From Ceratodon purpureus (taxonomy: Eukaryota > Streptophyta > Bryopsida > Pseudoditrichales > Ditrichaceae): DNA of 64,000 bases. Position numbers and translations under genes: made by a program. The stretch is from positions 19,457,690-19,521,689 of the forward strand of contig CM026423.1 in the NCBI GenBank assembly GCA_014871385.1. The letters run 5' to 3'. Below, piece by piece: positions 8,097 to 59,956 of the stretch. Numbering within the stretch: position 1 is the first letter of the stretch; each line of letters begins with the position of its first letter. The notes under the pieces were generated by a model, which searched no databases, was not told the origin of the DNA, and worked only from the letters and a program-made list of their open reading frames with translations.

Positions 8097-11000
8097 ATGG
8101 ACGTAGAGGCCACTTTGCATGTCACGGATCGATTCAGGCAGATAAGAAGAGATGCCAAGTTGGACGCTAGGGAGGAAGCGTTGGCTGATAGGCGCCGGGA
8201 TAGAAGAAGAATTTGTCCATGCAATATATGCCTTGGTGAAAACCACTCAATTCGACCAAGGGCGCAGGTTCAAGCCCACCTTGCAACGTACGGGCGTCAC
8301 CCTTACCACCGGAAGTCGACACAAGTACGTTTTGGTTCCATCTCTTCTTCTGTCAATCAAGAATTTTTTTAATCGTTGCTAATCGGAACTTCAGCCGAAT
8401 CGAGGTTACGGCGTCCAATCACATTTCTGAATATTAGGCCCCTCTATACGGATTAGGGTTTGGCGGATTCATACCTGGGCTGCTGCTGGTGCTGTCGGGA
8501 TTAATTAGCCATTCCCCGATGCAGCCACCCTAGTCCTCTTCGGATTAATTAGCCATTCCACCATGCAGCCACATTGACAGAGAACAGGATAAGTCTAGGG
8601 TAAATTTCCCACAATGTAGTGATTTTTAATTTTTTTAAACATTACCGTGAACAGGGCTTCCCCTTGGACGAGTCAGACGACGAGTGGGACTCGTCGATAC
8701 GTGAGGAGTTTGGTGCTCGTGGACCCAGAATCTTTCCCACAGAGGGCGCGGGCGTGGACGTTGGACTGGATATGGTGGGCTTGGTGGAACATGCTTTCCA
8801 GGTATACGATGGCCTAGCGGGAGGGATTGGAGTTGACGAAACGGAACTACCTGCTAACGATACCGACGAGGTGATGCCGGACCCCATACCAAACGAGCCC
8901 TTGCCTGAAGACGAAGGCCACGACAATGGAGCTACAGCAGAGGAAGGCGATAGAGTGGACGATGACCTCGAAGCAATGGACATCGGCCCACCGTCCTTAC
9001 GCGAAATGCTAGAGTCAAGTGCGACGACACCATTATATGCAGGGGCGAGTCTCACAACGCTGGGCGCTACATTGATATTGCTGAACTGTCTCCGCACACA
9101 TGGAGCATCAAATGTACTTATCAACGAGTTGTTTGGCATTTTATCGAAAAGTATCCTCCCATCTGTCAATTCGCTCCCGACCTCCGAATACACGGCGTCC
9201 AAGACCTTGAAACAGCTCGGTTTGGCGTATGACACAATTCATGTGTGCCCTGGCCCAAAGGCGTGCATCCTTTTCCGTGGTGAGGCTCACAAGGATTTAC
9301 AGCAATGCCCGGAATGCGGAGCTCAAAGATACAAACAGGTTGGAAAAGCAAAGGTACCTGTAAAAGTTCTTCGACATTTCCCATTAATTCCACGCTTGAT
9401 TCGAATGTATAGTACCCCGTTGCAGGCGTCCTTAATGACTTGGCATGCTAGTAACAAGAGCGAACCAGGAATAATGAGACACGCTGCAGACAGCTTCCAA
9501 TGGAAGTTTGTAGACAGTAAATACAGGGACGAGTTCGCACATGAAGACAGAAATTTGAGGTTAGGTCTGGCTACGGACGGGGTGAATCCCTTTTCTGTGA
9601 AGAGATCCACATGGAGTACATGGCCGGTACTAGTGTTGAATTACAATTTGCCTCCATGGATGACAACAAAACGTCATTTTATCATGTTAAGTCTTATTAT
9701 TCCTGGAAAGAAGTCCGTATCTGGCGAGAATTTTGATACCTATCTGCAACCCCTTCTTGAGGAATTAGAGATATTGTGGAATGAGGGTGTAAAGACAGAT
9801 GATGCGGCTATGTACCGGGGTTCACGTGAATTTAGTATGAAGGCTATTTTACTTTGGACGATACATGACTTCCCAGCCTATGGGGTAGTGGCTGGGTGTG
9901 TCACCAAGGGATACAAAGGGTGCCCTATTTGTGCTGAGAATACGATATCACGGAGGTCAAGGGCGCTACATAAAAATGTATACGATGACCAGCATCGACG
10001 CTGGCTTCCAAGTTCACATCCATGGAGGTCGAATGTGAGTGATTTCAATGGATGTGAGGAGCACAGGGAACCACCGAGGAGGGTCACGGCCAGCGAGATA
10101 TTGAGGTGGGGCAACTTGAGGGAGTCATTTGTACAAAGGGGTGGTGGTCATCCAGCCGAGGATCCTGCTAGGCAGTTTGGGATAAAAAGGGTCTCTGCGC
10201 TTTTCAAGTTGCCTTACTGGAAGGTAACGCTCTTTAAACACCTTGATTTAATCTGCAACCTCTCCTCTGTATTAATTTAATTTTATGTGTAACCTTTGTA
10301 ATATCCTCGGATTGCTCGAATGTTATGGTCTGTCTGTACTGCTCGGTAGCAAACTCCTTTGTACAAGAGTCGTGTTTCTCTTACTAACGATGGAGGGATT
10401 TTGTATCATGCCGGTACATCATACATGCGCTGTTGTCAGAAATCATCGCGCTAGATGAAGCATTTATAAAATGTAGAGTAGAACCTTTAGCACCTGGTTA
10501 TTGCAAGCCTTCTACCACCTGCGTGTCGTCGTCACTTTCAGTCTTAGACGTAGCCAGTAGTCCTATCACAGTCCACTCTGTCGGTTGTTGCCGAATGCAG
10601 AAGAATGAAACGTAGAATCAAAAAAGCGAGCAATGTCAAGACGAGTCCGGCTGACTGTATATGGGAGTTAATGACTGATTTGCAAGTCATTTTGTTCCCA
10701 CACAGTATTGGACTAGTGTAGACTCTCTGCGCCTAGTCTGTACAGTATTGCAGAAAATCTAACAGGAAATAACAAGCCAGAAACGATTCCCCAAGCCTCT
10801 CTTTAGTGTGACACATCTCTAATTTGTTACATATACCTGATGGCTGTGGAGTACAGTGTTGGGTGACGGTATACCGTGACCATTTATTTTTTTGAAGTGT
10901 ATGTTGACATGTGATGAGCTAGGATTTTTAACCGATTTGCCTTGATATTGTTTTCGGGTACGATGTAATTTTAATTCGGTCCCAATGACGGTGGGCTGTT

Positions 11001-12852
11001 TTCAGGAATTACCAGTCAGGAACACTCTCGATGTAATGCACATCGAGAGGAATGTTTCAGACAATATACTGCGTCACTTATTTGGTGAGAAGGATACTCT
11101 GGCAACGCGACAAGATATGGTTGAGGCTGGGAAAATGGCGCACCTACACTTACAGCCAGGACCAGGGGAAACTACATAAAGCCGAAAGCTCCCTATGTTT
11201 TTTCTGAAGAGGAGAGGTCCACGTTCTTGCGACTTGTATCCAACACTAAAGTGCCGACGGGTTATAGTTCTACTCTAACGAAACATATTGGTGAGAGTAG
11301 ACTAGGAGGACTGAAATCTCATGATCACCATGTTTTGATCGAGCAGATTCTACCGGCTGCTGTGCGGACTTTACTCAGTAGAGGGGTGCGAGAGACGGTG
11401 ATACGTGTGGGAAACCTCTTTCAACGAATCTGTGCGAAAACAGTAAGAGTGGATTCAATTCCAGAGCTTAGGACCTATGCTGTTGAAACCCTTTGTTTGC
11501 TGGAGATCCACTTTCCACCAGGTTTCTTCGACATCATGACTCATTTGGTCATTCACCTGGTTGATGAACTCGAAATTTGTGGTCCCGTACATTCGCGCTG
11601 GTGCTACTCCATCGAAAGATATCTGGGCGTTCTGACTAAGTTCGTCAGGGACACGTCGAAGCCTGAGGCCGGAATGGCGACCGGTTACATGATTGAAGAA
11701 TCCCTTGGTTTCTGTACGGAGTACTTTTCGCTTTATCCTCATACTAGGCGACGTATGTGGGACCCTGAGGAAGAAATGCGCGATAATGGAGAGGTGTTGT
11801 TGGGCCGCGGTGTGCCAAAGACGTTGCCGCATCATATGCTATTACATGCACACGATTATGTTACAAAGCATTCAATCCATACGTCGGAACTGCTAAGGTA
11901 TGTAGCCTATCATGATTTAAATTAATATCGATTTCTGCATCACAAGTCTCTCGTACTGTTGAACTATACTCTCTGAATGAAACACCGTTACGTCCCTTGC
12001 AGTGAGTGGAGCAGCCAACGCCAAATCTTTCAAAATGCACGAGCCTTGCATAGAGCAAGTGCCCGCGGCAGGGCTGGACCATTTCCCGAGCACCTGGCGG
12101 AGCCATTTCCGAAGTTTCCTCGGTGGTTGTACAACCATGTCAGAACCCTCAAGGAAGAAGGGTTCCCTATGTCGACGGAGCTCGAAGCTTTATCATGTTT
12201 GCCTTCTGAGCATGTGACCAGCTATAACGCAATGTGGGCATATGGAGCCCACCTAGTCACGACGCAAGAGACCGGCTCGGGCTATGTTACATTTGATAGC
12301 GGCATCGCAGCCATTCCCCCGGATAATTCCGTTTCAGCTATAGACGTTGGAATTCTTAGAGATATAATACTTATTTCGTATGGTTCGCTAAATTGCGTAC
12401 TTCTTGAAGGGTCTTGGATCAAGTCACGTGATCAAGGCAGAAGCGTCGTCAAACGCGATCAATACGGGTTCTGGACAGTCTCCTTCAATGCCAGGGACGC
12501 TCCTAATCATAATCCTTATGTATACCCGGCATCCATATCACAAGTATTTTTCATGGACGACCCAAGCTGTCCAGATTGGAAGGTAGTTATAAGACATGAC
12601 CCACGGACACGGCGAGTGATAGAAGACCGGGAGGAACTTGAATTTGGAGCCTCAGGTTCTGTTGCCGGGTTCGACCGCACAGACGGCGCTACCGCTGCCG
12701 CAGATGAGAGAATTGGTCCCGAAACTCGGGACGAGGAGATCCCCTTCGAGCAGTACACGACGCTTGCCGCACAAGTGGAGGATGTATTAGATGAACGGCA
12801 TCTAGACGATACACAATATGAGGACGAATTCGAACTTCTTTACGTGGAGTGA
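8097..12852 (+). CDS. TNP2-type CACTA transposase (Transposase_21, DUF4218, DUF4216), one probable frameshift
   Basis: Catalytic transposase that cuts and moves the CACTA element in the nucleus. Model: exons 8097-8324, 8655-10223, 11006-11897, 12003-12852, with junctions CAA|GTACGT, AAG|GTAACG and AAG|GTATGT and acceptors ACAG, TCAG and GCAG, all preserving frame. About 1,180 codons. Exon 1 has a conserved N-terminal cysteine motif (CPCNIC...VQAHLATYGRHP). Exon 2 has the Transposase_21 core: LATDGVNPF (about residue 384), LPPWM, YLQPLLEELEILW, and WTIHDFPAYG (about 481). Exon 3 opens with LPVRNTLDVMHIERNVSDNI (about 600) and continues into DUF4218 (GGLKSHDHHVL...). Exon 4 holds DUF4216 (QYGFWTVSFN...VFFMDDPSCPDW) and an acidic tail. 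Near 11165-11168 the frame breaks: one extra base in the GGGG run is needed to enter the next conserved segment, so this copy or the assembly carries a 1-base deletion. Confidence 0.9.
8496..8572 (+). repeat. Short direct duplication in TNP2 intron 1
   Basis: The phrase GGATTAATTAGCCATTCC followed by ATGCAGCCAC occurs at 8496-8528 and again at 8541-8572. It is a local duplication of about 45 bp inside the first TNP2 intron (8325-8654). Confidence 0.8.
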
Positions 12853-13469: not shown

Positions 13470-13479
13470 ACGGACTCAC

Positions 13480-13534
13480 GGGGAAAGGTCGTATGTGAGC
13501 GGAGAGCGAAGAGCGGAGAGCGGAGAGCGGAGAT
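13480..13534 (+). repeat. Left terminal inverted repeat of the MULE-like element
   Basis: Starts GGGGAAAGGTCGTATGTG and continues into a purine-rich array of GCGGAGA/GCGAAGA units. The inverted partner is at the right end. Confidence 0.75.
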
Positions 13535-15977
13535 TGAAGAGCAGAAAATAGACATTTATATTGTCATTATAAATTCAATCATCCCCTATGACCGTGGATA
13601 TTTTGCTGAATACTTTTATTATTTTTCAATTTTGAGATAAATTTAGTATATAATCTGTTGATTTAGATTCTAAATATAGCAATATTTTGGCATGTTTCAA
13701 GCAAGTTCAATCTCCATGGATAGAATTCCTTTTCTTCACTGTGAATAATTTAGGGCTGACGTCATCATGACATTAGTGTATGGTCAATAATTGTCTACTT
13801 TCAATAATCTGTTCTATTTTCTTTTTAATCCTTGTTTTGTATTAGATAGCCGTCTAAATTTTTTTAATCTTTTCCTTAATATATCTTATCTCATATTATC
13901 TCATCTTATCTTTCTCATGTTTTTATATTGGTTTTACTGTTCCTGTTATTTACATTTTGCTTGACTTTTAAAAGAATTGTTTATGTGAGGGTGTATATTG
14001 TTTGTATGTGAATGTATATGAACCTAGATGCTCTGTGGAATTGCCTCGTGTGCAAACATGTTTGCTGGTGTAAGTGACTTTGTATTTGCAAATGTTGGTG
14101 AGTGTAATTTGAGCATGTGTGATATGTAGTGCATGTTTTTCAAACTATTAAATCAAAGAGCACAATGTGTTACGAAGGAATTGTTTTTGATTTAGGATTT
14201 TATAATAGAATTGACGTACATCTTTTTAACTTTCATCGCCATCAAATTCTATTTCATGAAGTTCTATCTGTAATTGCATTGTTTTTGTCTAATCATAAAA
14301 ACCGCACTACTCTATATAATGGCAAGGACTTTGGAAATGTCAAGATCAATGTTGTCAACTATAGTAGCTCCAATGCAGCACTTGTATCCTTGGATAAAGA
14401 TCTGTACTGTAGTAAAGATCTATCATCTAAGCTAAGATTGTTAGTAAGTTCATACTAAAAACATGTGTATTTGAATGATAATTGTTGATACAATTGTCTT
14501 AAATCATTATAAGGAACAACCTCGGTGCAAGTGTGACTACATAAGGAGTTTTAGAATACACTTGAAGGCATGCATGTGTGAGTATAAACTCATTAATACT
14601 GTGAAATTGCAAAAGGCTTTTTAAATCAGTTATAAATTTTTAATGGTTATCGGCTACTTTGATAAATAATAATGGGAATTTATCATTCGCCATGGATAGT
14701 CAAGAAAAGATAAATTATGGTGGTTAGAAGTTCAATAGTGATCATTTAAACACCTTTGCTATACATAGTAGCCGCTGATGATGTAGTATAATAACTAGAA
14801 AGTAACTAGGCACTGTTGGTTGGGCAAGAAGATTAAATGTGGTAGATATCTTCATTTGGAAATATAGGATTATATTAGGATCAGAAGAGAGAGGCGGTTA
14901 ATAAAGAAAAAGAGCTTTAGGGTTTTCTAGAAAGGATATGTAAAAAGCGAAAAGGACTGAAGACCATCCTTGTACAATGATTTTGATTGTACATTAACAC
15001 TTTTTAGAAAATGTAAGATAAAATCTCTTGAACCATTAATCTAGTGTAAATAAGATGGTGTGGAAAAAATATGATATAGAGATGGAATTCTAAGAATATA
15101 AGAACATGAAGTGCAATAAGCACAACGATGAAGAATAGAATAGATTCTTTATTTATGGTTTTCTTTGGAAGCATATAATGAGCTTTGAAAGATAATCTAC
15201 TTTTAACTATAATTGTTGAAATTTAGAGCAAATCCATAGCCAATTAGACTAGACTTTGCCAGCTAGGAAAAAAATGGTAGGATGCGAGCCAATCATGGTA
15301 GTTACAACTTATTGGTGACATAGAATTTAAGCTTCATTTAAAAAGTTTAAAATTTAAGGTATGCTTCTGTAGATATAAAAACTTTATTACAATAAAATAT
15401 ATAGAAAAGCTCATACTTGTATTTGCTTGTTAAAAAGGTGTTAACAAGACAATGATATCAATTTGTACTTAAAGTAAATCATGGCACTCCTTATCATCAA
15501 CTTAAAAAGGAAGATAGACAACAAAGATTTATCTAACTTATTATTACCAAATTGAGAAAAAAGTGAAAAAATGAAAATCCCTAAAAAATTGATACATTTT
15601 CAACCTCCATTTTTAAAGTGAAAACAACCTTTACCACAAAGATATTATTGCGTTTTTTGCTACAACAGGATAAAACATACAATAGACGCACGAGACCTTT
15701 TGCAATCATAATCATTATAAAAGAGATCTTGAAACAAAACGATACAACGTTCAACAAAAAATGAGAACATTGAATGCAAAGAAACTATTTGTACAACTAC
15801 ACAACATCATTAGACTTTAAAACATGAGACAAGCCAATCCACAATAACGTTCGAATAATTGTAACTTAAATGTATGAACAAGCATACTAACAAATGCCAT
15901 CTCCTAAAAATTACCCAATTGCCATTATAATATTCCAAGAAAGTCCTCATCAACAAAACAAGACAGCATGCCGGTAG
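13535..15977. other. AT-rich left interior of the MULE-like element
   Basis: No gene recognised. The longest frame (14129-14458, plus, 109 codons) shows no known domain and has AT-driven composition, so I do not call it. Confidence 0.5.
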
Positions 15978-16377
15978 ACAAAGAACGAAAACAAGTAAAA
16001 CAAAACAACCCAAGTTGCAAAAGATACAGCGCAACACTTTCATATAGCTTTTTCCTCCAAAAGTAAACAAATCTCACCATGCTTGATGCAATCAATCATT
16101 TCAAAAAAACATAAACAGAGAACTTCAAATAAGAGTATGAGCAAGCTTCAACCCATTCTAACAAAACATTATTCCATGGTCTATGTACAAGACATTCACT
16201 TGGTTTGGTCAATAACTATAAAAGCACTAAACCACTACATACACTATAAAATCCAACTAAAACAATCAAAGTGATAACAAAAGAGGCTCCCAAAATGCAT
16301 TCCATCTCACCTCTAAACATAATCATGAAGATTCATACTACCATTCAAAGGCGGCCTAGATTTTCAAGGTTCTCACA

Positions 16378-17365
16378 CCCCCTCATGTTTGAGATCCAAT
16401 ATCTCCCAAACCAAGCAAAACCAAGGCTTCAAACTTCGTACACACATGTGATACCTCACAAAGTAGCCTTCCACGAAATCTCATTTCCAAAACCGTCGCC
16501 GATTAGCGTCAACACAATGGAAACCAAAGTCCAAAATCTGCCATTTTTCCCAGAAACCCGACCGCCCCCTGGAGGCTGGGAAGGGGCTCTCGGTGCCGAG
16601 AGCCCCTTCCCAGCCTCAAGGGCGCGGTCCTAAAAGGGCCCTTTTCAAGCCCATGATGTGGCTCTCGACACCGAGAGCCCACAATTGGACTCCAAGTGGG
16701 TGGCATTAACATGGCAAACAGTGGCAGAATGGATGCCAAGGTTTTCAGACCCCCTCATGTTTGAGATCCAATATCTCCCAAACCAAGCAAAACCAAGGCT
16801 TCAAACTTCGTACACATATGTGATACCTCACAAAGTAGCCTTCCACAAAATCTCATTACCAAAGTCGTCGCCGATTAGCGTCAACACAATGGAAACCAAA
16901 GTCCAAAATCTGCCATTTTTTCCAGAAACCCGACCGCCCCCTGGAGGCTGGGAAGGGGCTCTCGGTGCCGAGAGCCCCTTCCCAGCCTCAAGGGCGCGGT
17001 CCTAAAAGGGCCCTTTTCAAGCCCATGATGTGGCTCTCGGCACCGAGAGCCCACAATTGGACTCCAAGTGGGTGGCATTAACATGGCAAACAGTGGCAGA
17101 ATGGATGCCAAGGTTTTCAGACCCCCTCATGTTTGAGATCCAATATCTCCCAAACCAAGCAAAACCAAGGCTTCAAACTTTGTACACACATGTGATACCT
17201 CACAAAGTAGCCTTCCACAAAATCTCATTACCAAAGTCGTCGCCGATTAGCGTCAACACAATGGAAACCAAAGTCCAAAATCTGCCATTTTTTCCAGAAA
17301 CCCGACCGCCCCCTGGAGGCTGGGAAGGGGCTCTCGGTGCCGAGAGCCCCTTCCCAGCCTCCAGG
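16378..17365 (+). repeat. Three tandem 372-bp units (left arm)
   Basis: The landmark CCCCCTCATGTTTGAGATCC recurs at 16378, 16750 and 17122, exactly 372 bp apart. Each unit ends with a GC-rich hairpin (GGCTCTCGG/CCGAGAGCC). The first and second units also contain a second, smaller GGCTCTCG hairpin. The third unit is shortened after about 17365 and passes into 150-bp units. Confidence 0.95.
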
Positions 17366-17675
17366 GGGCGGTCGGGTTTGGGGCTTGATGGGCCTTCATT
17401 GACCAATTCTTACTTGTAAAGGGACCGGTTAGGACCCCTTAGGCCAAATCTCCGACCGCGCCTTTGAGGCTGGGAAGGGGCTCTCGGTGCCGAGAGCCCC
17501 TTCCCGGCCTCAAAGGCGCGGTCGGGTTTGGGGCTTCATGGGCCGTGATCGACCAATTCTTACTAGTAAAGGGACCGGTAAGGGCACCTTAGGCCAAATC
17601 CTCGACCGCGCCCTTGAAGCTGGGAAGGGGCTCTCGGTGCCGAGAACCCCTTCCCGGCCTCAAAGGCGCGGTCGG
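17301..17675 (+). repeat. Three 150-bp-spaced long hairpins (left arm)
   Basis: Hairpins centred at 17338, 17488 and 17638, exactly 150 bp apart, each about 74-76 bp with stems of roughly 36 bp and a TG at the tip. The stem contains CCGACCGCGCC...GGGAAGGGGCTCTCGG. The linker between stems is conserved (GACCAATTCTTACT...GGGACCGGT). Confidence 0.9.
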
Positions 17676-17875
17676 CTTCTACACCTCTAGGGTTCATAAG
17701 GGTCCCTTTTTATGTAAAAACGCGAAGGTAAAGGGTCATATGGGGACCTCTTCTCAAAAAAAGGGCTCTTTGAGGCAACTAACGACCCATCTACATACAA
17801 ATGCGGGTCTTTAGGGGCGTAAGTGGCTGATTCCTAAAAAAAAAAGGAATACGAAGGGCCTATATCCCCCCAATC
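17676..17875. other. 200-bp spacer at the centre of the palindrome
   Basis: The only sequence in 15978-19573 without a mirror partner. It is mixed in composition, has an A10 run, and encodes nothing recognisable. Confidence 0.85.
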
Positions 17876-19573
17876 CCGACCGCGCCTTTGAGGCCGGGAA
17901 GGGGCTCTCGGCACCGAGAGCCCCTTCCCAGCCTCAAGGGCGCGGTCGAGGATTTGGCCTAAGGTGCCCTAACCGGTCCCTTTACAAGTAAAAATTGGTC
18001 GATCACGGCCCATGAAGCCCCAAACCCGACCGCGCCTTTGAGGCCGGGAAGGGGCTCTCGGCACCGAGAGCCCCTTCCCAGCCTCAAGGGCGCGGTCGGA
18101 GATTTGGCCTAAGGGGCCCTAACCGGTCCCTTTACAAGTAAGAATTGGTCGATGAAGGCCCATCAAGCCCCAAACCCGACCGCCCCCTGGAGGCTGGGAA
18201 GGGGCTCTCGGCACCGAGAGCCCCTTCCCAGCCTCCAGGGGGCGGTCGGGTTTCTGGAAAAAATGGCAGATTTTGGACTTTGGTTTCCATTGTGTTGACG
18301 CTAATCGGCGACGACTTTGGAAATGAGATTTTGTGGAAGGCTACTTTGTGAGGTATCACATGTGTGTACGAAGTTTGAAGCCTTGGTTTTGCTTGGTTTG
18401 GGAGATATTGGATCTCAAACATGAGGGGGTCTGAAAACCTTGGCATCCATTCTGCCACTGTTTGCCATGTTAATGCCACCCACTTGGAGTCCAATTGTGG
18501 GCTCTCGGTGCCGAGAGCCACATCATGGGCTTGAAAAGGGCCCTTTTAGGACCGCGCCCTTGAGGCTGGGAAGGGGCTCTCGGCACCGAGAGCCCCTTCC
18601 CAGCCTCCAGGGGGCGGTCGGGTTTCTGGAAAAAATGGCAGATTTTGGACTTTGGTTTCCATTGCGTTGACGCTAATCGGCGACGACTTTGGTAATGAGA
18701 TTTTGTGGAAGGCTACTTTGTGAGGTATCACATGTGTGTACGAAGTTTGAAGCCTTGGTTATGCTTGGTTTGGGAGATATTGGATCTCAAACATGAGGGG
18801 GTCTGAAAACCTTGGCATCCATTCTGCCACTGTTTGCCATGTTAATGCCACCCACTTGGAGTCCAATTGTGGGCTCTCGGTGTCGAGAGCCACACCATGG
18901 GCTTGAAAAGGGCCCTTTTAGGACCGCGCCCTTGAGGCTGGGAAGGGGCTCTCGGCACCGAGAGCCCCTTCCCAGCCTCCAGGGGGCGGTCGGGTTTCTG
19001 GAAAAAATGGCAGATTTTGGACTTTGGTTTCCATTGAGTTGACGCTAATTGGCGACGACTTTGGTAATGAGATTTTGTGGAAGGCTACTTTGTGAGGTAT
19101 CACATGTGTGTACGAAGTTTGAAGCCTTGGTTTTGCTTGGTTTGGGAGATATTGGATCTCAAACATGAGGGGGTGTGAGAACCTTGAAAATCTAGGCCGC
19201 CTTTGAATGGTAGTATGAATCTTCATGATTATGTTTAGAGGTGAGATGGAATGCATTTTGGGAGCCTCTTTTGTTATCACTTTGATTGTTTTAGTTGGAT
19301 TTTATAGTGTATGTAGTGGTTTAGTGCTTTTATAGTTATTGACCAAACCAAGTGAATGTCTTGTACATAGACCATGGAATAATGTTTTGTTAGAATGGGT
19401 TGAAGCTTGCTCATACTCTTATTTGAAGTTCTCTGTTTATGTTTTTTTGAAATGATTGATTGCATCAAGCATGGTGAGATTTGTTTACTTTTGGAGGAAA
19501 AAGCTATATGAAAGTGTTGCGCTGTATCTTTTGTAACTTGCGGTGTTTAGTTTTACTTGTTTTCGTACTTTGT
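17876..19573 (-). repeat. Right arm of the 3.6-kb palindrome
   Basis: Mirror image of 15978-17675. Homology ends just past a shared ACTTGTTTTCGT-type sequence near 19560-19573, after which the flanks are unrelated. Confidence 0.95.
18186..19173 (-). repeat. Three tandem 372-bp units (right arm)
   Basis: The complement of the landmark recurs at 18425, 18797 and 19169, again exactly 372 bp apart. The hairpin tips read CA instead of TG, as expected if the whole arm was inverted as a block. Confidence 0.95.
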
Positions 19574-22407
19574 TTGAAGGTTTGTTATGGCTCTTTTAGC
19601 ACTTTGGGTTAATCAATTCTTTTAAAATTCCTTTATATTATTTAATTACACATGAAATTATGCATGATCCTATTGTATGCTTTGTGTATTGGCAATTGCC
19701 TTCTTTTTTAGAGTGCACAATTTGAGTTAGAGTTAAGTCCTTTACATGTTTATAGTACTGAACGTATGTCTTTTCACATTATTTTTTGATGATTGGTGCC
19801 GGAGATGTAGAGCTTTTTTGTAGAAATCACATAAAAATTGACATCTCATACATTTCTCTCTTTAGTTATGGGGTTCTTTTTCTTTGAGCAATCACCCTAA
19901 CATTTTGGAAGGTGCAATTCTACACTAGATTGCTTGCAGTTGAAGTTAGTCATTGATGCCTTGAACAATGCATTTTGATCCATTGACCACTGTATTGAAA
20001 TAGAAACTCTGACATATGACAAAGCACCTCACTCTTTATGACCTCGCTCTTTATGACAGTTCTATTAGATGAGACACTTATCTAGCAATAGATTTAATAG
20101 ATTATCATCATCGATTATGTTTTGATTGATTTTTTCTATATGTTGTTGACCAACATATTTATCATGTAATCACTTTGCAATCTTAAGATCCACAGAAACA
20201 TCCTCATGAGCTTTTAGATGTTGACTATACACACGTGGTTTTCGGCTTTGCTTGTTTCTCTTGCTCATTTCCTTGTGTCTTTTCCACAGTCTAAATGTAT
20301 TTTTTTTCTTAAAATACGCTCCTCAACACTTTTGATTGTTTCTTATGAGGTTTGACATATTGGCTTAGTTTTCATGTCCTTTATCTTAGCCTGCATTACT
20401 GCTCTCTCATCTGTTTCTTTACTCAATTTTGTCTCCATATTATAGAATATAGCTAAATAATTATCAAGCTATAAATTCTTTAATCAGCCATTGAAAACTC
20501 AGAGTCCTATGTTTTCAAAGACAAAGACACTTTTTTAATAGATAATCAGTGTGTCATCACGCTATCTTTAAGAAACCTTAATTTTTGAATTCTAATCTAG
20601 TGATTTTAAGTAATGTATATGTTAATAACTTAATACACACATAAACTCACTTCCAAGCCTCAACACATAAATGCAATTTCAAAGTACACACACTTTTCCA
20701 ACATATTACAAATAAATTTTGAAATCACTTCTTCAATCTCTCCTACAAAAATGCACAACATACTATGCCAAGAGGCAGACTCAACTTGACTTCAATTTCT
20801 TCAATTAGTGGTTGTGACTTTCTTTGACTCTTGCTTTGGCTCTTTATTTTCCACCTCTACTTATCGTTACATCAGGCCATCATAGTCATTGCATAAATTC
20901 GTAATAGTATGCATTTCTTTAATGACACAAAGTCCCACAAAGAAGTGTCACCTATCTTGTAAATTTATGTATTAAATATAAATTTGAAAGGATAACGCTT
21001 CCAAAAAAACTTCATTATCTATGTTTGAACTAGATTTTGCATCTTTTATGTCACGTCATGAACTAAACTTTGTACTCTAATAATGAAATGTTTGACAAAA
21101 ATCATCAATGAGAGCAATAAGAATATTGATCACGATGCATTATAATCTATATCCATCTAACTTGTTATCTTTTAAAGGACAATTGTTGAAATTGGCTTTT
21201 TGAAAGTTTAGGCAAGTACTTGTGATGTCAAATTTAGATACGATTTTTAAAAAAATTGTGAGAATTTTTTCCCTAACAAATGTTTTGAAGGAATCTATTT
21301 TCTTTAAAAAATTGGACACGAAAAAAAAATAATAATGGTACTTGAAGTGGAATTTTGTGTTGTGTAGGCAATTCAGGGAGTTGTGCTAAATACATATGTT
21401 ACCTTTCAGACTTTTTCTATAAATATTCAATGTTTTCATCTTTGAGGTTTTCCAAAAGAGAATTACTTTTAGTACAATGTTCATTCCGCAAAAGATCAAA
21501 GTTTTTTCACTGTTTCAAACAATGCACCAATAAAACTGTTTCTTTCTTTTATAAAAGTTAGAAACTTTGTTTTCTTAGGTTTATTCTTTTTTTCACTAAA
21601 ATGATGAATATTAATCTTTATTTTGACAGTTTAGATTGGGACTTTATAAAGTAATGGAATCTCTAGGAAAGAAATTATATGAATTGGACATTCTTATGTA
21701 TTCAACTTTATAAAAAATATTGTTTTCTGCATGCTACACTTGTCTTCTGTCTGTAATTTATTTTGGTACAATTAGCTATCTTAGAAGTCTTTGTCAAGCA
21801 TGAAAACCCTAAAATCCACAATGTAAGAAGCCTAAGAAAAAAAGTTAGAGTGAGTCAACCTAATTAAAAGTCAAGCTAAGAAAGTTTGTTTTTGGATTTC
21901 AATTGTTATGATCATCTAAACTCTACGGTCAATTCAGATGATTTTTTTTGTCCTATCTACAACAATAATCTTATTAAAGATCTTATAGTTAGAATTGAAA
22001 ACTGATGATTTTTTAGTCATTCATTCTTTCTACATTAGAAATGGCAGTTTTGAGAGTTTTTAGTGAAATATAGTCAAAGAACTTTAGGGGTTAAATTGCC
22101 CCTACAACACCACTAAACCAATGTCCAACATAATTTCTTATTAGAAATGGATCAAATACTATCTACTATACAAAATAATCTTCATCCATCTATTCGTGTA
22201 ATACATAAAATATTGCGTACTTGCAAGAAAAATGGAGATCAAAACTGATAAAATCAGACTTCAAGCCACGGACATAGGACCAATTTTTTTACTAAAATTA
22301 GGAATATTCTAAAAAGATTCGAATATTCTAAACACAGATTCTAATTTTAGAAAAAAATTTAACTATTTTTAGAATCTGCTCTCCAATTTCTGCTCTCAGA
22401 GCAGAAA
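19574..22407. other. AT-rich right interior of the MULE-like element, with a possible element relic
   Basis: No gene seen. From about 21171 to 22094 the sequence resembles the TTAA-flanked elements elsewhere in the window: its left part has AATTGGCTTTTTGAAA and GTGATGTCAAATTT, as in the element at 57728. Its right end is CTTTAGGGG followed by TTAA (22091-22094). The left terminus is eroded. It is probably an old relic of that family. Confidence 0.4.
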
Positions 22408-22462
22408 TTCTTTGCTCTCCGCTCTTCGCTCTCCGCTCACCGCTCACATACAAGCTTCCCTC
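22408..22462 (-). repeat. Right terminal inverted repeat of the MULE-like element
   Basis: On the minus strand it starts GAGGGAAGCTTGTATGTG and enters the same GCGGAGAGCGAAGAG array as the left end. Just inside, GAATTTCTGCTCTGAGAGCAGAAATT forms a further small hairpin. Confidence 0.75.
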
Positions 22463-22472
22463 ACGGACTCAC

Positions 22473-33639: not shown

Positions 33640-35004
33640 AAACAATGACAATATTGGAGATCAAGGGATGTTGCTCGTCCCAACAAGCACCAACATGCAC
33701 CGAGGTCAAAGCTCTCTATTTACACAAGACTCACTATTTACACAAAAGTTTCAACTATTACAACTATTGTGGTAATTTTCTCTATAAAGATTTAAATTAC
33801 TGCAATAGTTGTACTAATTTTATATCAATTTGATAAATGTAGCGTAGAGACTTATTCAAGATAAAGAGAGGATGGACTTTAAAGTAAGTAGGCCTAGTTA
33901 GTCAATTTTACAAAATAAGATTTTTGCTACATTTGCATGAATTTAATAGAGTATGTAGGTCATTTTTTTATATTGGTTATTCTTGACCGTTCAAATACAT
34001 TAAAATTGGGGGGAAGCACAATAAAGTGGACCACCAAGTGCAATATGTGATCACTAGGAAGTGAATATGAAGTGTGCTGTTTTTTATAGCTCAAAGCTGA
34101 TTTTGAGCATTTTGGTGTAGTTTTTGAGCATTTTAGTCACTTTTTAAGGTGTAATAAGGTATCTTACACACATCTCCATGAAAAAAACATCTCCAATTGA
34201 AACTTTATTTGACCCCTAGTTCTAAATCATGAAAATGAACTTTTCCAAAGTCTTGATTTCTTCATTTGGGGCCCTCTATTGTCTTTAGAGGATGTTTTTT
34301 CCAATTTAAAAAACAATGTTTGATGAAAAAAACCTCACAAAAAGTTTCACCAAAAACAGTGTTTTAAAAACGTCCCGGGGATACTTTTCGCCAATCTAGG
34401 ATTGCAAACACGGCCACCCGGATCATTTCTACAAGCGTAATGTACAAACGAAGGACCCCACAAAGTCAAAAGTGATTTCTGTCAAAACTACAATGTAATA
34501 CGGTCACTTTTCCAAATGATTGCATTCACTTTGTTCAACTTTGTGGTGTTCATAGAGGTGTCTCAACTCAACAACTACGAACGCAAATTTCGGAAGTTGT
34601 AGTACATCAAGTCTACTTTCGGTATCTCAAACTTAATTTCCCATCAAGAAGTTTTAGATGCCACTTTCTAGCGTGTTTACACAACATGCTGAAATTGGCA
34701 ATGAGCTAAGCACTTTTCTGGTCCACTTTATTGTGCTTCCCCCCAATTTTATTAACCAAACGTTGATTGAGTCAAGAATTTGGCTTATTCTAAGTGCCTA
34801 TAAATGGGTGTGGTTGTTGATGTCATCTTATTTTGTGCAATGGTACTTGGTCTAATTGTTATTGTTCAATTCATTCCTACACACCCACACCACCTTATTC
34901 AATGATTAATTTTTATACATGCTATGCAAATGAGAGAATAATGAAAGTAGTGCACATGGTTTTTCGTTGGACACAATAGTTCATAAGGCATATTGTCCAG
35001 ACAT
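33640..35004 (+). mobile_element. Copia-like LTR (5' LTR, interrupted)
   Basis: The right boundary is supported: the sequence ends CCAGACA and is followed after two bases by a primer-binding site complementary to initiator methionine tRNA. A TATA box (CTATAAATG, about 34797) lies about 200 bp before the end, as in an LTR promoter, and AATAATGAA further on could serve polyadenylation. The left boundary near 33640 is a guess from composition. The inverted-repeat element 34001-34751 interrupts it, leaving an LTR of about 610 bp. No second complete LTR is found in the window. Confidence 0.5.
34001..34751. mobile_element. Inverted-repeat element nested in the LTR
   Basis: A 33-bp inverted repeat, essentially perfect, at 34001-34033 and 34719-34751 (begins TAAAATTGGGGGGAAGCAC). 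The 751-bp element has no coding capacity. I cannot identify a clear target duplication; the flanks offer only short AT matches. The superfamily is unknown. Confidence 0.7.
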
Positions 35005-35180
35005 GTGGTATCAAGAGCACTAAAGAAGGCTAGAGTAAGAAAGAAACACAAAAGTTAAATTTGGGTCATTGATCAAGATAGTTATTTCAATTAGTCTAAA
35101 GCATGAATACTTGCAGTTATTGATGCTAAGAGGTAAGAACACATGAAGGAAATGACAGTAGAACTTTTTTAAGAACCTAT
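34779..35180 (+). repeat. 402-bp direct repeat, copy 1
   Basis: Nearly identical to 43773-44174 at a constant offset of 8,994 bp, with five substitutions and no gap by eye. It spans the LTR TATA box, the end of the LTR, the primer-binding site and the start of the leader, so it is not itself an LTR. Confidence 0.95.
35007..35019 (+). promoter_or_regulatory. Primer-binding site (initiator Met tRNA)
   Basis: TGGTATCAAGAGC closely matches the common plant Copia primer-binding site TGGTATCAGAGC with one extra A, and sits 3 bp after the LTR end. A second copy is at 44001-44013. Confidence 0.7.
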
Positions 35181-35654
35181 ATAGAGAGAGAGAGAAACTA
35201 CGGTCTCCGGAGGAGACCGAAGTGAATTAAGTGTTTGTTCGATCCCCCACCAATCCAATGCCCACAAGACAAAGGTATGGAAGTAAAGATCTACTCCCCC
35301 CTTTTGAGAGTAGACACTTTAGTCACAAAGTAACCAGTAACCAGTAACCAGTTAAAAGTAACAAGTAAGAGTAGTGATTATCTTCTCAATATTCATTTGA
35401 TTATGATTTTGGACACCAAGCCACGAGCTCATTGTTGGTTGGAGGTGAGCGTTTGTCTCATTAATCTCGTCCGGGTTCGAACCCTGATGGACTCGTTTGA
35501 GTGGATGTGGGGGATGAAGTGGCTTGGTACTGCTGAGTGAGCGATCGCAGGCAGTAGATGAGTTGTGCCAACCAACAGCCCCCTTTGCGAGAAGTTGACA
35601 AGAGACTTCACACCCATATGCTAACAATTTAAATAAAGTAGCTTTAGCTACTAA
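35181..35654 (-). mobile_element. SINE-like element, minus orientation
   Basis: On the minus strand it ends with CTTAATTCAC, a hairpin (stem CGGTCTCC, 35201-35219) and a CT tract (35183-35195). The same order of landmarks closes the SINE-like element at 48187-48535. A tRNA-type B box (GGTTCGAACC, about 35470) is present, but it is palindromic and so does not orient the element; the A box is unclear. It abuts the A-rich 3' tail of the LINE. The 5' limit is uncertain. Confidence 0.45.
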
Positions 35655-37406: not shown

Positions 37407-38855
37407 CTATGTTGTTGTTTTGGTGGTGGATACAGAGTATTCTGAGCGTAGAAAGTTCTTTTCTTTCAAGTTTAAGTTCGGGGGAATTGTTGGCTCTTCA
37501 TATTTAATGGTGTCTGCAGCAAAATGGGCAATAATATGAGCGTCCGGGAATGGGCCGGTGTAAGGGTTAAAGTTTTGGTACCAGTTAGTATCGGGAGAGA
37601 TGAGTATGGTGATAGTGTTTGGGTCATTTTTTGCCGCAATCCAATGAATGGCTTGTTGTAAGTCGGTTTCATTGTGGGGGTGAGTGTAGCCAATTCCTTT
37701 CCATTTATGATCAAATGCTTTCCCTAGGGAGCCAAATATTATATCTCGTGAAAAAGGTGAGTAAAATTGGGTAAATTGTGTAGGGCATGTAACTGGTGAT
37801 GAAAAGTAAGATTGGTGGATGTTGAATGTTGCTATTAGTAAGTCTAGTATTTCAGTTGGTATTGTATATTGAGCACATTTAAGTGGATCATTTTTTGGAA
37901 TACGATATTTATATCTTTGATATAGCCACACAATTTCAGTTTCAAATGATTGGGTGGATGGCTCAAGGCCATGTGGGGTATTTTTTGCATGTTGATATTG
38001 TTTCAATAGCCAAAGTAGTCTGGTTTTCGGGATGGTGATGAGGTGCCGGCCATTATCTTTGTATATATGTACGACGTCATGTTGTGTTTGGATAATGTTC
38101 GAGTCCGTTTCGATGTCATTTTCTGGATTGCATTCATTAATAGAGACATGAGCTAGTAGAATAATTGTGGCCGGAGTAATGTATCTTGTATCTTTTTGTT
38201 GTTCTATGGAGAAGTGTTTTTTGATGATATTTAAAAAATGTTTATGTTGTTGTTTAGTGTAGTATTGGGTAAGTAATTCAGTATTGTGGAGACAATTGTT
38301 AGTGTCACTCCAAGGGAAAAGTTCGCTTTGACTACGCCATTTGTTGTATGTGTTATTATTTGGCGTGGTCCATTGGCATAAATATGTTGTATCTTTATAG
38401 TTTATCCCATTTGGATCTTTGATTTTATGTTGTTTGTGGTTTAGTATTGTCTGTATGGGAAATTGTCTTGGATATTTAAGCATATTGTTGGGAGGAGGAG
38501 GAAGTTCGGGAATGGGAGGGTGTATTGGAGGGTTCAGTTGTTGTGGTAGGATGTTGTGGTTTAATAATATGTAATCATTTTTTAGAGTTCTTGGGGGGAA
38601 GTGGAATCGGCATGGTATTTGGCATCTTTGATGGCAAGTGGGTTGACAGAATAATTTATTAGCGATATTTAAGGCACTTTTTATGATTTTTGTTGGGTTG
38701 GAGTGGTATATTTTAAAATCGTCTAGATTCATTAGGGTGGTACCGTTAGGCATGGTTATTTGTTCTAATTTTATTATATTATGTAATAATAGTTTTTGTA
38801 GTAGTTTGAAAGAAGTTTTGGGGTTTAGGCCATGTAGATATTGTGCTTTTTGCAT
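37407..38855 (-). pseudogene. LINE middle segment: Cys cluster, chromodomain-like, methyltransferase-like
   Basis: A 482-codon open stretch between reverse transcriptase and RNase H. Residues 70-82 form C-x3-C-x3-C-x3-C. Residues about 135-200 read like a chromodomain: ILNHK, then TTYLCQW, then TYNKW, then ELF and LLTQYY. That would match the YLVKW...TWE..E.L pattern, although the usual aromatic cage is only partly kept. Residues about 337-450 (FTQFYSPFSRDIIFGSL, GYTHPHNETDLQQAIHWI, ITILISPDTNWYQN) recall phage-type N6-adenine methyltransferases, in which a D/N-PPY motif would be expected; here it reads THPH. That part is a weak resemblance only. The 3' end (STTKTTT*) is caused by a frameshift before the RNase H frame. 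Confidence 0.55.
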
Positions 38856-39016
38856 CCAGGCAGTTTCGAGTGGGGATGGGTTTAATAGAAAATTTTTCTA
38901 TTGTGCTTTTAAGGTGGACTCCAGCTTCATGTTTAAGTAAAAACAATGTCTAGTGATAGGGGATCTCAGACAATTTTGATATTTGATGCGGTCTATTTCT
39001 TCGGAACCTCCAAATT

Positions 39017-43772: not shown

Positions 43773-44174
43773 TTTGGCTTATTCTAAGTGCCTATAAATG
43801 GGTGTGGTTGTTGATGTCATCTTATTTTGTACAATGGTACTTGGTCTAATTGTCATTGTTCAATTCATTCCTACACACCCACACCACCTTATTCAATGAT
43901 TAATTTTAATACATGCTATGCAAATGAGAGAATAATGAAAGTAGTGCACATGGTTTTTCGTTGGACACAATAGTTCATAAGGCATATTGTCCAGACATGT
44001 GGTATCAAGAGCACTAAAGAAGGCTAGAGTAAGAAAGAAACACAAAAGTTAAATTTGGGTCATTGATCAAGATAGTTATTTCAATTAGTCTAAAGCATGA
44101 ATACTTGCAGTTATTGATGCTAAGAGGTAAGAACACATGAAGGAAATGACAGTAGAACTTCTTTAAGAATCTAT
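43773..44174 (+). repeat. 402-bp direct repeat, copy 2
   Basis: Matches 34779-35180. It begins directly after the LINE 5' end and continues on its right side into sequence not found after copy 1 (CTCTGAACTTCGCAAGC...). That downstream sequence is probably the original internal leader of the LTR element. Confidence 0.95.
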
Positions 44175-47100
44175 GTACTCTGAACTTCGCAAGCAAAAAA
44201 AGATAACCTTAATTCTTAGTACCACCAAAGAAGAAAGAGACGTAAAGTGTTACCAAAATGCTTCTAAATATGAGTAGAGCACACCGTACTTATTTTTTTT
44301 AAAGATTTAGAATTTGCAAAACTAATCTAAGCGGAACGCATAGGAATGCTTTCAGAAGACAACAACGAAAGAAAAGAAGCAATTTAAGCTATCCAAGACA
44401 TTCTATACAATAGATTTCAAGAGATGGAAAAGTGGTTGAAAAACAACGCTATTATGAATTTTCCGAATGCAAAATTTATTATAACGTGCAAAAAACAATA
44501 CAAAAAACTTATTAATGCTCCTTGAAGCAAAGAGTTTTGTCATATTTAGCAAGGGCGGGATTAGATTTGTTGAACAGGAATTCGGAGAAGAGGAAATATT
44601 TATACTTGCATCTTCAAGCATAAAATTTTGACCTAAATCTCTCAAAGATCATACATTGGAAAAAAATTATGAAAGTTGAGAACATAGATTAGAGGATTGT
44701 AACATATTAAGTGAAGAGAAGATATTTTTTTCTTCCTTATTCACACATAATGAGTAAAATTTGATTTTTCTTAATGCCAAGTTTCTGCACTATAAAATAT
44801 CTAGATTCTTTACAGTTACTCTATAATTGATGATAATTTCTTGCATACCAAATTTTAAGTGTAGCAGAGAAATGTGGCATTTTTATAGAAATCTTGTAAA
44901 AAATGAAAATTCAAAACATTGCTAATGCACATTTTTTGGCGACACAAATCTTTGTAGAATCTATATTCAAATAATCAAAACAAAAATTTATGTATTTACT
45001 TAAAATAGAGAAAAATACTCTATGATTTCTAATGATTTTTTAATACTTTCCTCAATCAAGTGAGACACTAAAAGAAAGAAGGCTCAAGTACACCAAGTCA
45101 CTACACCAAAATTGTCAAATGGTGTTCATCTAAAAGTAGAACTACAATCTTATTGGTTGATGAGCTTCTTTGGTGTTCATTGCGTAGGGTGCTACCAAGG
45201 TTCTATGATTATTGAAAACATAATGTCAAGTGAATTACGCATGTCTAATGGAAATAAAGTCTCTTTTTGGGCAGTGGGAGGATTTCATACATTGGCTATT
45301 TTCAAACTTAGAAAGTAAAGTGACGTTGTATTTAAAATTGAGATGTAGTGCTCCAAAAATAGCGGATCTTAAAAGTGCGCATCTCCCTTGTGAATGAGGG
45401 AAGGAGGAGAAGCATTGGCAACCATTGCAACTCAAAGTGCACAAAAGGTAGTTGTGGTGGTTGCAGCAGCTGTGGTGGTCGTTGCGACTATATAGTGGTG
45501 TAGTTGATGGTTTGTGCATAGAGCAGTTGGCAACATCCCGCCTATTTGAATCTAGAGATTGTCCAAACCCGCTGGGTTTGAGGTGAAGGCGAGCTAATAG
45601 CCAAGTTTTCAAGTTCACTGGGAAGCTATGCATCCATGACTTGCAAGTTCCACTTCTTTGTTAGGGACTTGTTGTGGAAAGTCAAATAGGTGAGTGTTTT
45701 GGAGTGTTTTGGGTGATGGTTATTAATTTTGTCACTTGACCATTCTACAGAGTTGAATCTGGCATCCACTAAGACATTTTTTGTAAAGCTCCGCAAATTT
45801 ATTTTTGGAAAGGAGCTAATTAGGATGGTTTGTAAAGGAACTCGTTTAGAAGCATATTGAACTCGTGATTTGAGTTTGGTGTCATTCAAATATACAATTC
45901 ATTGTATTCATTATGTCGTTTATGCCAGCCGAGCTAGAGTTTGTAACAGAAGAGGAAGAATTTCAATACCACCCTCTCCGCCACTGATTTCTTCTTCTCG
46001 CTTCATTTTCTGACTAAGACTTAGAAATGACTAGAAGGCTGATTTGTCAAATACACATGTGTTGGATTCTGGTGCTTTGCAAGTCGGTGGTGTTGTGACA
46101 AAGGAAAGTGTTGGAAGTACATCTAACGTCATATTCAAACGTGCTACTATAATAAGAACGCAAAGAAATACAAATCATGCAATATGTGTCACTCAATATT
46201 ATTTTACTCACCCATAAATTCTCTATAACAATTGGTCACCACACTACTTATATATAGGACGCAGGTCACGTAGGTGGAGACACCATTTATTATGGAAGTA
46301 GAGCCATACAAACTGTAAATGCTCTTTTCTAGATGCCCTGAAATAGGCATGAGTGCGTTGTGTCCAATTACACTAAATAGAAATCTCACTACACCATTTG
46401 GAAAAATTAAAACTATGCATGTTTTTGGTATTCATCCTAGTGTAGTTGATTGGCTTTTCTACTAGTAAGAAAATTTCAACACCTTTTTGACTAAATTTTT
46501 TCATTGAAGAAATGTTTTTTTATTTAAATTTCACAATCTCAAAGAAAATCATGTGGTTTAGTATTAATTGTGTTTTCAATGTGTCACTAAGCCAAAATTT
46601 GGATCTACATATTTTGAATAATCAAAATCAATTTGATATTAAATTTATTGAAATTATCTATGATTCAAAAATTGAGAATGATGTTTTAATGCCACCTTTA
46701 ATTTTGAGGAAGGTTGGAATTCAAAAAAGAATAGAGATGAAAACTACATATTTTATACAACTAATACTTCAAAAACTACATTCATAAAAAATAAAACATG
46801 TTCATCTCTTTGATACAAATCAATCATACTTTGATTTCTAAATAAAACTTTTTAAAATATCTTTTTATAGCATGAAACCTTTATCATCACTTAAAATATT
46901 TCTTTAAATTTTTTGAGAGTCTTTGAATACTTATTTATGTATTTTTGGCACAACATTCATTTAATATATATTTATATCACATGATGATTTTTTTATAAAT
47001 CATATTTTTTAAATGAAATAAACAAAACTTATTTAAATAGTCTAAAACTTTAAATTTCATGATTTTTTTTATAATATGACCTCTAAAGCCTACAAGTAAT

Positions 47101-48535: not shown

Positions 48536-51661
<3,126 letters not shown>

Positions 51662-57727: not shown

Positions 57728-59956
57728 CCCCTAATTGGCCTTAGTCCTAGAATGGGCTTTTTGAAATTTTGGGTAGCTTCCTATGATGTCAATTTTAAAT
57801 ATGAGTTATTGAATGTTTTGGTATAGATGATTTTTATTTTATTTATTTAATTTTATTCATTTATTTTATTTTTTTGGCACTAGACATTGGAAAACATATT
57901 TATGGTCCCCAAAGCGGTTTTTCCTATTCCTTAGGCAGCTTCCAAATTTTTATATGTCCTTCAACGACATTTGGGATTTTTTTATGCAAGTGATTAACAT
58001 GATTGGCTTTGAGACTGTAACATAAAAATTCTTATATTGCAGAAGATCTAAAATTTTCTTCATCTTTTTTGGTCAAGTTGAAAAAACAAATTCTCTATCA
58101 CATAAAAGATATAGATTTGTTCTTTTTTCTCTTCTTTTTTCCTACTTCAAGAATAGACATAAACCTTTTTTTTCTTTTTTTTTTACTGCATGGATTTGTA
58201 CTCAAACAAAAAATGGTTTATCCAAAAAAAGAATGAGTATTAGCAAAAACATCAATCCATTTTTCTTATATAAACTTTTCACAATGCTACACCTTTTTGT
58301 TAATTCTAAAATTTGGTGTACAAGTACCTAACATCATGTACATCGTACTAGAACAAAATCTCCAACATGTATAGTACAAAACATTTACATAAAGAGAAGT
58401 CAAAGTCTATTGATCATATTTGAAAAGGATGAAAAAAAACAATGATTCTTACTTCAAAGTCTATTATCTTCTAATCTACATAGTCAAATTTCTTGAAATT
58501 TTTTCTGCATGATACTCTAGAAGTTTTAAGTCAGATTCTACTGTTAAAGATGCAAAGAAAGCTTTGGTTTTTATTTGTTTACTCTTGCTTTAGAAATGAC
58601 AATTTTTTTAGTGTTTTTGGTGGAAAACGGTCACAGCCGATTAGAGGTTGAGGTTTCAAATGATAACAAGATTTCTCCTCTTAATGTACTTTAACTTCCA
58701 ATTTATTTGAGCTTCCAATTTGAAGATAACTCTATTATAGAGCTATTGTGCATCCTCCGGTTCCACACAATATGTTTAGAATGATTGTAGTGTAGAAACC
58801 AAACTGCTAGCTTGGTACTGGTGTTTTCTTCTTTGTTTATTGAGGTTGATTACAACAGGTCTGCTATGAATAACATCTGATGTACAAGAGGAAATACTTC
58901 AGTCTCGTTTAAAGACCTATATGAATGAAATATCTATTTGTTTTAAATGTCTTCTTTTTGTATGATGTTTTTTGATATACCAAGTATGTTTGAGTATTGG
59001 GTGTTGTTCTCAATCCCAAAATTTCCATCAAATGCTTTATTAAAAAACATTCCGCAAAACACTTCAAAATTGTCATTTTTTATTTTGGATCAAATTAGTT
59101 ATTTGTATATCAAATCTCAAAGGTAGTAGAAGGACATAGCCTAATTTTGTGAGTTTAATGGCACCAAGAAATCTACTTGAGATATCATAAATCATTTTCT
59201 TGTTCAATGCCAAAACAATACCACTACAAGGTCCTTGTAATTCTTCAAGTCTAAATTATTAATAAATTGAGACACAAATTAATGTTTTAGAAAACTTGAA
59301 AAAAATGGCAAAAATCCATTTTGAAACAAATATACTTTCACCTCAAATTGGATGTGACCATTTCTCACCAAAAACACTCTAAAAACTATTATTTCTAAAG
59401 CAAGACTAAAAGAACCAAAATTAAGGCATTTTTTTGCATTTTTGATTGTAGGGTCTTACTAAAGACTTCTAGAAAATCCCGCATAATTTGTTTTTAATAA
59501 ATTTTGCCGCGCTCATTGTAAGACTATAGATTTTGTTTAAATTAAGAAATATCATTTTTTTTATCATTTCTAAGCTAGATCTACAGACTTTGGCTTCTCC
59601 TTGTGTCAAATTTTTTGCATTACATAAGTTGAAGATTTTACAATAATTTTGTATAAATGACATTTCGGACATGAATCCAAATTATTGCTTATAGGAGTTT
59701 TATTTTTTTCGACAAGCCATTTATTTTTAGAATATGAAATGCAAATATGATTGAACAGCCCAACAGTAGAAAAACCGACATGGACTCCATAAATATTTTT
59801 CCTCATGTCTAGTGCCAAAAAAAAATTATATAGCTACAAAGCTCTTGCAATGGCCTACATCTGTAAAGAAAAAATTCAAAAATCACATCCAAATTTGACA
59901 TCATAAGAATTCATCAAATATTCAAAAAATCCATTCTAGAATATGGCCAATTAGAG
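57728..59956. mobile_element. TTAA-flanked foldback element C
   Basis: TTAA stands outside both ends (57724-57727 and 59957-59960). The ends are CCCCTAATTGGCC and, inverted, CTCTAATTGGCC. Homology between the two sides does not stop there. TCTAGAATGG, TTTTTTGAA, ATGATGTCAA, GGCACTAGACAT (57878 and, inverted, about 59815) and AGTGTTTTTGGTG (58610 and, inverted, about 59370) all pair. The arms are thus about 620-930 bp long, diverged and with gaps. No protein is encoded. The left arm alone resembles the ~925-bp elements elsewhere in the window, so C may be two copies head to head. Confidence 0.6.

Follow-up and report, generated by a model that had tools for sequence, protein, structure and literature searches.

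A 64,000-bp stretch of the Ceratodon purpureus genome (GenBank assembly GCA_014871385.1, contig CM026423.1, positions 19,457,690 to 19,521,689; hereafter the window) contains a long palindrome, which lies inside an 8,983-bp non-autonomous transposon (13480-22462, forward strand). The palindrome is mobile and, by the pattern of its variants, internally converting. Very probably, it travels in a Mutator-type family, and its arms recombine with each other through gene conversion and inversion of the spacer.

A palindrome within a transposon

The left arm (15978-17675, forward strand) and the inverted right arm (17876-19573, reverse strand) are separated by a 200-bp spacer (17676-17875), the orientation of which varies among family copies. 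A sequence-only reading had placed arms and spacer at these coordinates with no difference in arm length, and this is borne out: the arms align without a gap and are identical at 1672 of 1698 positions (98.47%). Judged from the sequence, the length of the match excludes a chance origin. All 26 differences are substitutions (16 transitions and 10 transversions), and five of them lie in the outermost 40 bp. No longer inverted repeat was seen beyond the arms; the alignment of the 1-kb flanks scores 75.5, against 71.9 +/- 6.5 for shuffles.

Both arms contain tandem repeats. A 372-bp repeat is present in 2.7 copies at 16365-17373 (forward strand) and 18178-19186 (reverse strand). A 150-bp repeat is present in 2.5 copies per arm at 17301-17675 (forward strand), with a mini-palindrome in each copy, and at 17868-18249 (reverse strand). 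There are five mini-palindromes of 70-82 bp and two of 20 bp in each arm. The best of them spans 82 bp (17298-17379, no strand assigned) and is imperfect only at its two central bases; its predicted folding energy is -94.9 kcal/mol, whereas shuffled sequences average -40.7. Diagnostic bases are common to matching repeat positions of the two arms, which indicates that the tandem arrays are no younger than the present arm pairing.

The limits of the transposon were set by its terminal repeat, its target site duplication and the extent of homology among copies. The 10-bp sequence ACGGACTCAC occupies 13470-13479 and 22463-22472. In a control with 2000 randomly paired 60-bp stretches from the window, a 10-mer was shared by 13 of the pairs; unlike these, ACGGACTCAC sits precisely at both element ends. 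The terminal inverted repeat at 13480/22462 scores 144, compared with 59 +/- 8 (maximum 84) for 200 shuffles and 99 for the best unrelated 400-bp window. It carries 7- and 14-bp GAGCGGA sub-repeats, and both ends begin with G. The left outer segment (13480-15977, 2,498 bp, forward strand) and the right outer segment (19574-22462, 2,889 bp, forward strand) are without a credible Pfam domain. No coding domain was recognisable in the 85 scanned of 121 stop-to-stop frames (at least 38 aa), the other 36 all being located in the arms; the best match was a single weak bacterial one (E 0.038).

The 362-Mb assembly (151 contigs) was searched with the 423-bp outer part of the arm, and the best 40 of 43 candidates were scored. 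There are at least 40 long matches, which form 16 facing pairs (the window's included) and eight singles, two of the singles being parts of one element. Retrieval covered the 15 other pairs and five of the eight singles, leaving out those at C6:55.69, 79.53 and 60.07 Mb; the far ends of L019 and L020 lie outside the retrieved stretch. Separate insertions of the family are spread over no fewer than 11 numbered contigs. Where an end is present, most copies begin or cease to resemble the window element no more than 3 bp from 13480 or 22462; in L021, L023, L027 and L028 one end is frayed or truncated. Among the copies read, GGGGAAAGGTCGTATGTGAGCGG at the left end and GAGGGAAGCTTGTATGTGAGCGG at the right end (in inward direction) are nearly invariant, with rare changes. 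A perfect 10-bp target duplication flanks 12 of the 14 copies with both ends read, and every one is different. It is absent in L018 (10 of the first 11 copies were positive) and L023, and present in L021 and in a composite copy on C5. The palindrome spans 1.7 to 5.0 kb, and the number of 372-bp repeats is unequal between the arms in 10 of the 16 two-armed copies. The palindrome is not a lone inverted duplication, since 15 further copies read through both arms carry it. The element at 13480-22462 would be one member of a non-autonomous Mutator-type family with a long internal palindrome, moving as a unit. Exact motif scans of viral-contig and genome-contig collections gave no match.

Long-read libraries are well known to yield palindromes as artefacts, and an unsplit hairpin read or a false inverted duplication could in principle give such a structure. 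Here, an assembly artefact is extremely unlikely because the 26 arm differences are all substitutions with no insertion or deletion, because the structure recurs in the assembly with other repeat numbers, lengths and target sites, and because the perfect target duplication is intact on either side of the element.

It is also highly improbable that an independent foldback transposon has inserted into a Mutator-type element, giving two nested elements. Tetris-like foldbacks do consist of long inverted repeats with inner tandem repeats (PMC4079207). However, the ends of the palindrome lack a direct repeat of at least 6 bp, and thus a target duplication of its own, and a separate foldback insertion was rejected on this ground. 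In addition, part or all of the same two outer segments is kept in 16 of 16 two-armed copies (L014 retains 323 bp of the right segment; L019 and L020 exceed the retrieved stretch), and the matches to the 372-bp unit that were listed (the best 40 of 98) all fall within family loci.

Probable exchange between the arms

Concerted evolution was examined in a 387-bp outer unit from both arms of the 16 two-armed copies. The two arms of one copy differ by 0.94% over the 387 bp and by 0.35% over positions 51-387, whereas different copies diverge by about 2.5-2.9%, with 2.54% at positions 51-387. None of 20000 re-pairings of arms over the full 387 bp was as close as the true pairs. Mismatches between left and right arms pile up at the edge (39 of 58 lie within the outer 50 bp), as is expected where conversion lacks further flanking homology. 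Past position 50, 37 minor alleles are shared by the two arms of one or more copies, and another 15 are confined to single arms. Arm variants are thus concordant within copies and differ between copies, as in gene-converting palindromes. No clear GC bias of conversion was apparent on inspection of the arm-variant table by eye.

The orientation of the spacer relative to the outer segments was read manually in 19 elements: it is plus in nine, minus in seven and lost in three. At least five flips are required on a tree of the left outer segment. The spacer is gone in L015 and L021 and half gone in L011; in L028 it is missing together with the right arm.

The copy at C5:3747572-3792704 contains a sibling element with the same ends at an equal position of the 372-bp unit in both arms. 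In the left arm the insertion measures 34.3 kb, whereas in the right arm a remnant of 95 bp is left. Both have the same 10-bp duplication, CGTCGCCGAT, with one base altered at the right side in the left arm. A single insertion copied across the arms is the best explanation.

Arm concordance, spacer flips and the duplicated insertion together point to gene conversion between the arms plus inversion. From the pattern of variants, gene conversion would keep the arms alike except at the outer edge. Crossing-over between the arms would flip the spacer, giving the two orientations, and the tandem repeats within the arms would gain and lose copies. The shortened or missing spacer in three of the 16 two-armed copies may come from hairpin processing or slippage.

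Several observations speak against conversion and inversion of the arms, or limit them. Alleles private to one copy are found in both arms in 17 cases and in one arm in 15. Conversion is therefore incomplete, since 15 of 32 private alleles are one-armed and the 372-bp repeat counts are unequal in 10 of 16 copies. The partner arm is the nearest relative of just 11 of 32 arms (full 387 bp, ties included); this low figure goes together with a side-specific outer edge and with near-identical recent copies. Between copies, the arms are 2.6-2.7% divergent and the outer segments 1.6-1.8%. Short-read polishing could have contributed to the likeness of the arms in the assembly. Some nodes of the tree used for the spacer flips are weakly supported, and the spacers of L011 and L027 are partial.

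An alternative is that the palindrome is rebuilt whole by template switching, during replication or transposition, and needs no repeated gene conversion. The inner arm ends lie within 1 bp of mini-palindrome boundaries, which are plausible switch sites. However, rebuilding of this kind fits poorly with the repeated appearance, in different copies, of side-specific differences in the outer 50 bp and the agreement of inner variants within each copy, with the unequal repeat numbers of the two arms, and with the diagnostic variants kept at matched repeat positions in the window copy. It is considered improbable, though less so than the other alternatives weighed here, and conversion with inversion is preferred.

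A larger partner with the same ends

The 34.3-kb insert on C5 contains two open frames, P0002 and P0001, close to its right end, and also a nested Ty3-type retrotransposon with identical 642-bp long terminal repeats (LTRs). This giant, probably transposase-bearing element (L029, with L030-L033 and L026; C5:3750601-3784919) has two mini-hairpin arrays. The left terminal region of the palindrome element, beginning GGGGAAAGGTCGTATGTGAGCGG (13480-13549, 70 bp, forward strand), is 90% identical to the left end of this partner; the right terminal region, beginning inward with GAGGGAAGCTTGTATGTGAGCGG (22338-22462, reverse strand), is 90% identical to its right end over a 127-column alignment. Apart from these ends and a 25-bp stretch that accompanies the left one, the similarity found is in mini-hairpin modules.

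P0002 has at least 67 matches in the genome, its own place included (66 of 3233 candidates were scored). At 99-100% identity there are 34 of these 67 (own included), of which 31 are stop-free; so many near-identical, mostly stop-free matches suggest recent spread of the partner. The distance from P0002 to a listed right end was checked for 18 of the 20 matches on C1-C5 (C5:5540568 and C5:15713359 were omitted, as the list of ends stops at C5:3789193). A right end lies within 16 kb downstream of 15 of the 18: at 2404-2407 bp in 12, and at 2379 bp, 2740 bp and 15.9 kb in the others. The match at 2740 bp breaks off at residue 559 of 670. For one of the remaining three, the list shows no right end within 16 Mb, and for the other two it shows none at all. 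End pairs spaced 16.4-17.6 kb apart occur at C1:9796952, C2:2295309, C3:14563921 and C4:9335793, and three of the four enclose a listed P0002 match.

The pattern GNGGNAAGNTNGTATGTGAGCGG marks 1,122 element ends genome-wide, 559 in forward and 563 in reverse orientation, against 0 for the control. A variant, GGGGAAAGTTCG, which was not seen in the palindrome copies read, accounts for many of the left ends listed.

The P0002 motifs D, D, CxxH and E, followed by CxC..CxH, are kept in three of three diverged homologues. By eye, we take them to be those of a DDE transposase with a C2H motif and a SWIM-type zinc motif. The larger, same-ended element probably encodes a DDE/SWIM transposase. The link to the palindrome element comes from the shared ends, the 10-bp duplications and the constant spacing between the probable transposase and the right end; the larger family is the likely source of transposase, which would act on the palindrome element as well.

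A Mutator-type context had been proposed from the sequence, and it is likely right: the duplication is 10 bp, the ends start with G, and there are relatives with a probable DDE/SWIM transposase. The structure supports the Mutator label well and the protein supports it moderately. On the protein side, three results count against the label. Pfam gives the partner transposase a sub-threshold SWIM match only (E 0.056), it gives no MULE match in that protein, and the partial structure model of P0002 is too poor for use (mean predicted local distance difference test score 35). The 93 Pfam MULE matches listed are all more than 5 kb away from the 67 P0002 matches.

The palindrome RNA is predicted to fold with 1678 in-register pairs between the arms, in agreement with the long double-stranded RNA foreseen by the sequence-only reading; such RNA would form provided that transcription occurs. 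RNA read across the centre would be a hairpin of ~1.7 kb, the most likely effect of which would be to contribute to silencing of the family that it comes from. The same reading had suggested a counterpart of Mu killer, a locus the hairpin RNA of which silences autonomous Mutator-type elements in trans. Apart from the RNA fold, this idea draws on sequence shared with the partner. Palindrome 21-mers match 10 partner positions, and arms and partner have in common ~1 kb of 150-bp-like units (~68-76% identity) and 22-bp cores (100%). The core GGCTCTCGGNNCCGAGAGCC is found at 446 genome sites (control 0) and starts 1110-1127 bp from the left end in the seven elements in which both are listed. However, neither transposase nor terminal sequence is found in the arms. 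The arms show no similarity to the element ends, and a tblastn search of the whole window with P0001 and P0002 gave nothing at E 1 or better. Likeness to Mu killer in content was therefore rejected, as only GC-rich mini-hairpin modules are shared. The recent spread suggested by the 34 near-identical P0002 matches also argues against silencing of the partner, as does the position of the locus, which is one of many copies and lies inside another transposon. A Mu-killer-like role is very unlikely, and the locus provides no evidence for trans-silencing; the homology found to the partner lies in the parts of the arms that bear mini-hairpins.

The core GGCTCTCGGNNCCGAGAGCC is less likely to be a silencing device than to act as a cis signal or to have arisen as a side product of repeat growth driven by hairpins. 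The mini-hairpins are 70-82-bp units in the arms and 20-22-bp cores ~1.1 kb from the left end of the partner. One tentative suggestion is that the palindrome maintains itself, the mini-hairpins shared with the partner being cis signals that the long arms preserve by constant conversion between them, so that a mobile element would repair itself by folding. Such signals would serve replication, transposase docking or small-RNA production. The core motif was not found in the published papers searched. A GGATCC-centred version of the hairpin core occurs elsewhere, singly or paired (for example at C1:3031141 and C2:1389890).

Related systems and other features of the window

FARE and FB are foldback elements. 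The foldbacks Tetris (PMC4079207) and Tm1 (PMC3169594) have tandem repeats inside their terminal arms. The present element resembles them in its long inverted repeats with internal tandem repeats and in target duplications of 8-10 bp. Its 7- and 14-bp sub-repeats near the ends resemble the 14-bp ones reported for Tm1 (PMC3169594). In foldbacks, however, the long inverted repeats are the ends, whereas here the palindrome is internal, 2,498 and 2,889 bp from the ends, and the element has only short repeats at its termini. Mutator-like elements (MULEs) have target duplications of 8-11 bp (PMC6446971). The likeness to MULEs lies in the 10-bp duplication, the inverted ends, and the sharing of these ends with elements that have a probable DDE/SWIM-motif transposase. 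In contrast, the palindrome element contains a long palindrome in its interior and lacks a recognisable transposase, and its partner is without a Pfam MULE match.

In Mu killer, a part of mudrA is duplicated together with the terminal repeat TIRA (PMC3440606). Both it and the present palindrome are inverted duplications of more than 1 kb in a Mutator-type element. In contrast to Mu killer, mudrA- or TIRA-type sequence was not found in the present arms, and the palindrome is a dispersed family. Gene conversion from arm to arm is known from palindromes of the willow W and human Y chromosomes (PMC7023750). These share with the present case arms that are concordant within a copy and divergent between lineages. 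The present palindrome is far smaller, is borne by a transposon and occurs as separate insertions.

Among the listed titles and abstract openings of the open-access literature searched, none describes a DNA transposon with an inner palindrome that undergoes gene conversion. With the same palindrome inserted at no fewer than 16 sites, one genome provides natural replicates for the study of palindrome survival, the outer segments of each copy serving as a clock. Comparisons among copies and among individuals can yield the rate of conversion, the decay of arm edges, the rate of inversion and the deletion of the centre. To our knowledge, long palindromes have mostly been studied singly, locus by locus. 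The Mutator-type context and the function of Mu killer, joined in the earlier reading, are now separated.

The palindrome element is nested within a CACTA (En/Spm-type) transposon at 2386-25353 (forward strand), with ends CACTAGTGGAAACGG / CACTAGTGCAAAATG and a 3-bp AAT target duplication. This pair of ends is the only one of three candidates with matching 3-bp flanks. In 8604-12849 there are matches to Transposase_21 (1.3e-74) and DUF4218 (1.9e-32), and one to DUF4216 (2.5e-6) which at 28.4 bits is under its cut-off of 30.6. The host is a CACTA element, as it has CACTA ends, a 3-bp duplication and a TNP2-type transposase. The observed/expected ratio of CpG is 0.93-0.98 in the CACTA element, compared with 0.38-0.61 in the inserted element and palindrome.

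Scans of the 64-kb window with Rfam (gathering threshold) and for tRNAs gave no match. A tRNA-like B-box, GGTTCGAACCC, is present at 35474-35484 in the 3' region of a long interspersed nuclear element (LINE), possibly as part of a short interspersed nuclear element; another is found at 53952. This LINE is on the minus strand and is flanked by 405-bp direct repeats (34779-35183 and 43773-44177, 98.5% identity). Its frames encode endonuclease, reverse transcriptase and RNase H, and the frame at 37410-38897 also matches PCIF1_WW (1.9e-10). The 405-bp repeats are without LTR-type ends by eye and could represent a target duplication of unusual length. At 50058-50172 there is a TA tract of 57.5 copies, and at 58355-58648 and 59340-59639 an inverted repeat of ~300 bp (72%).

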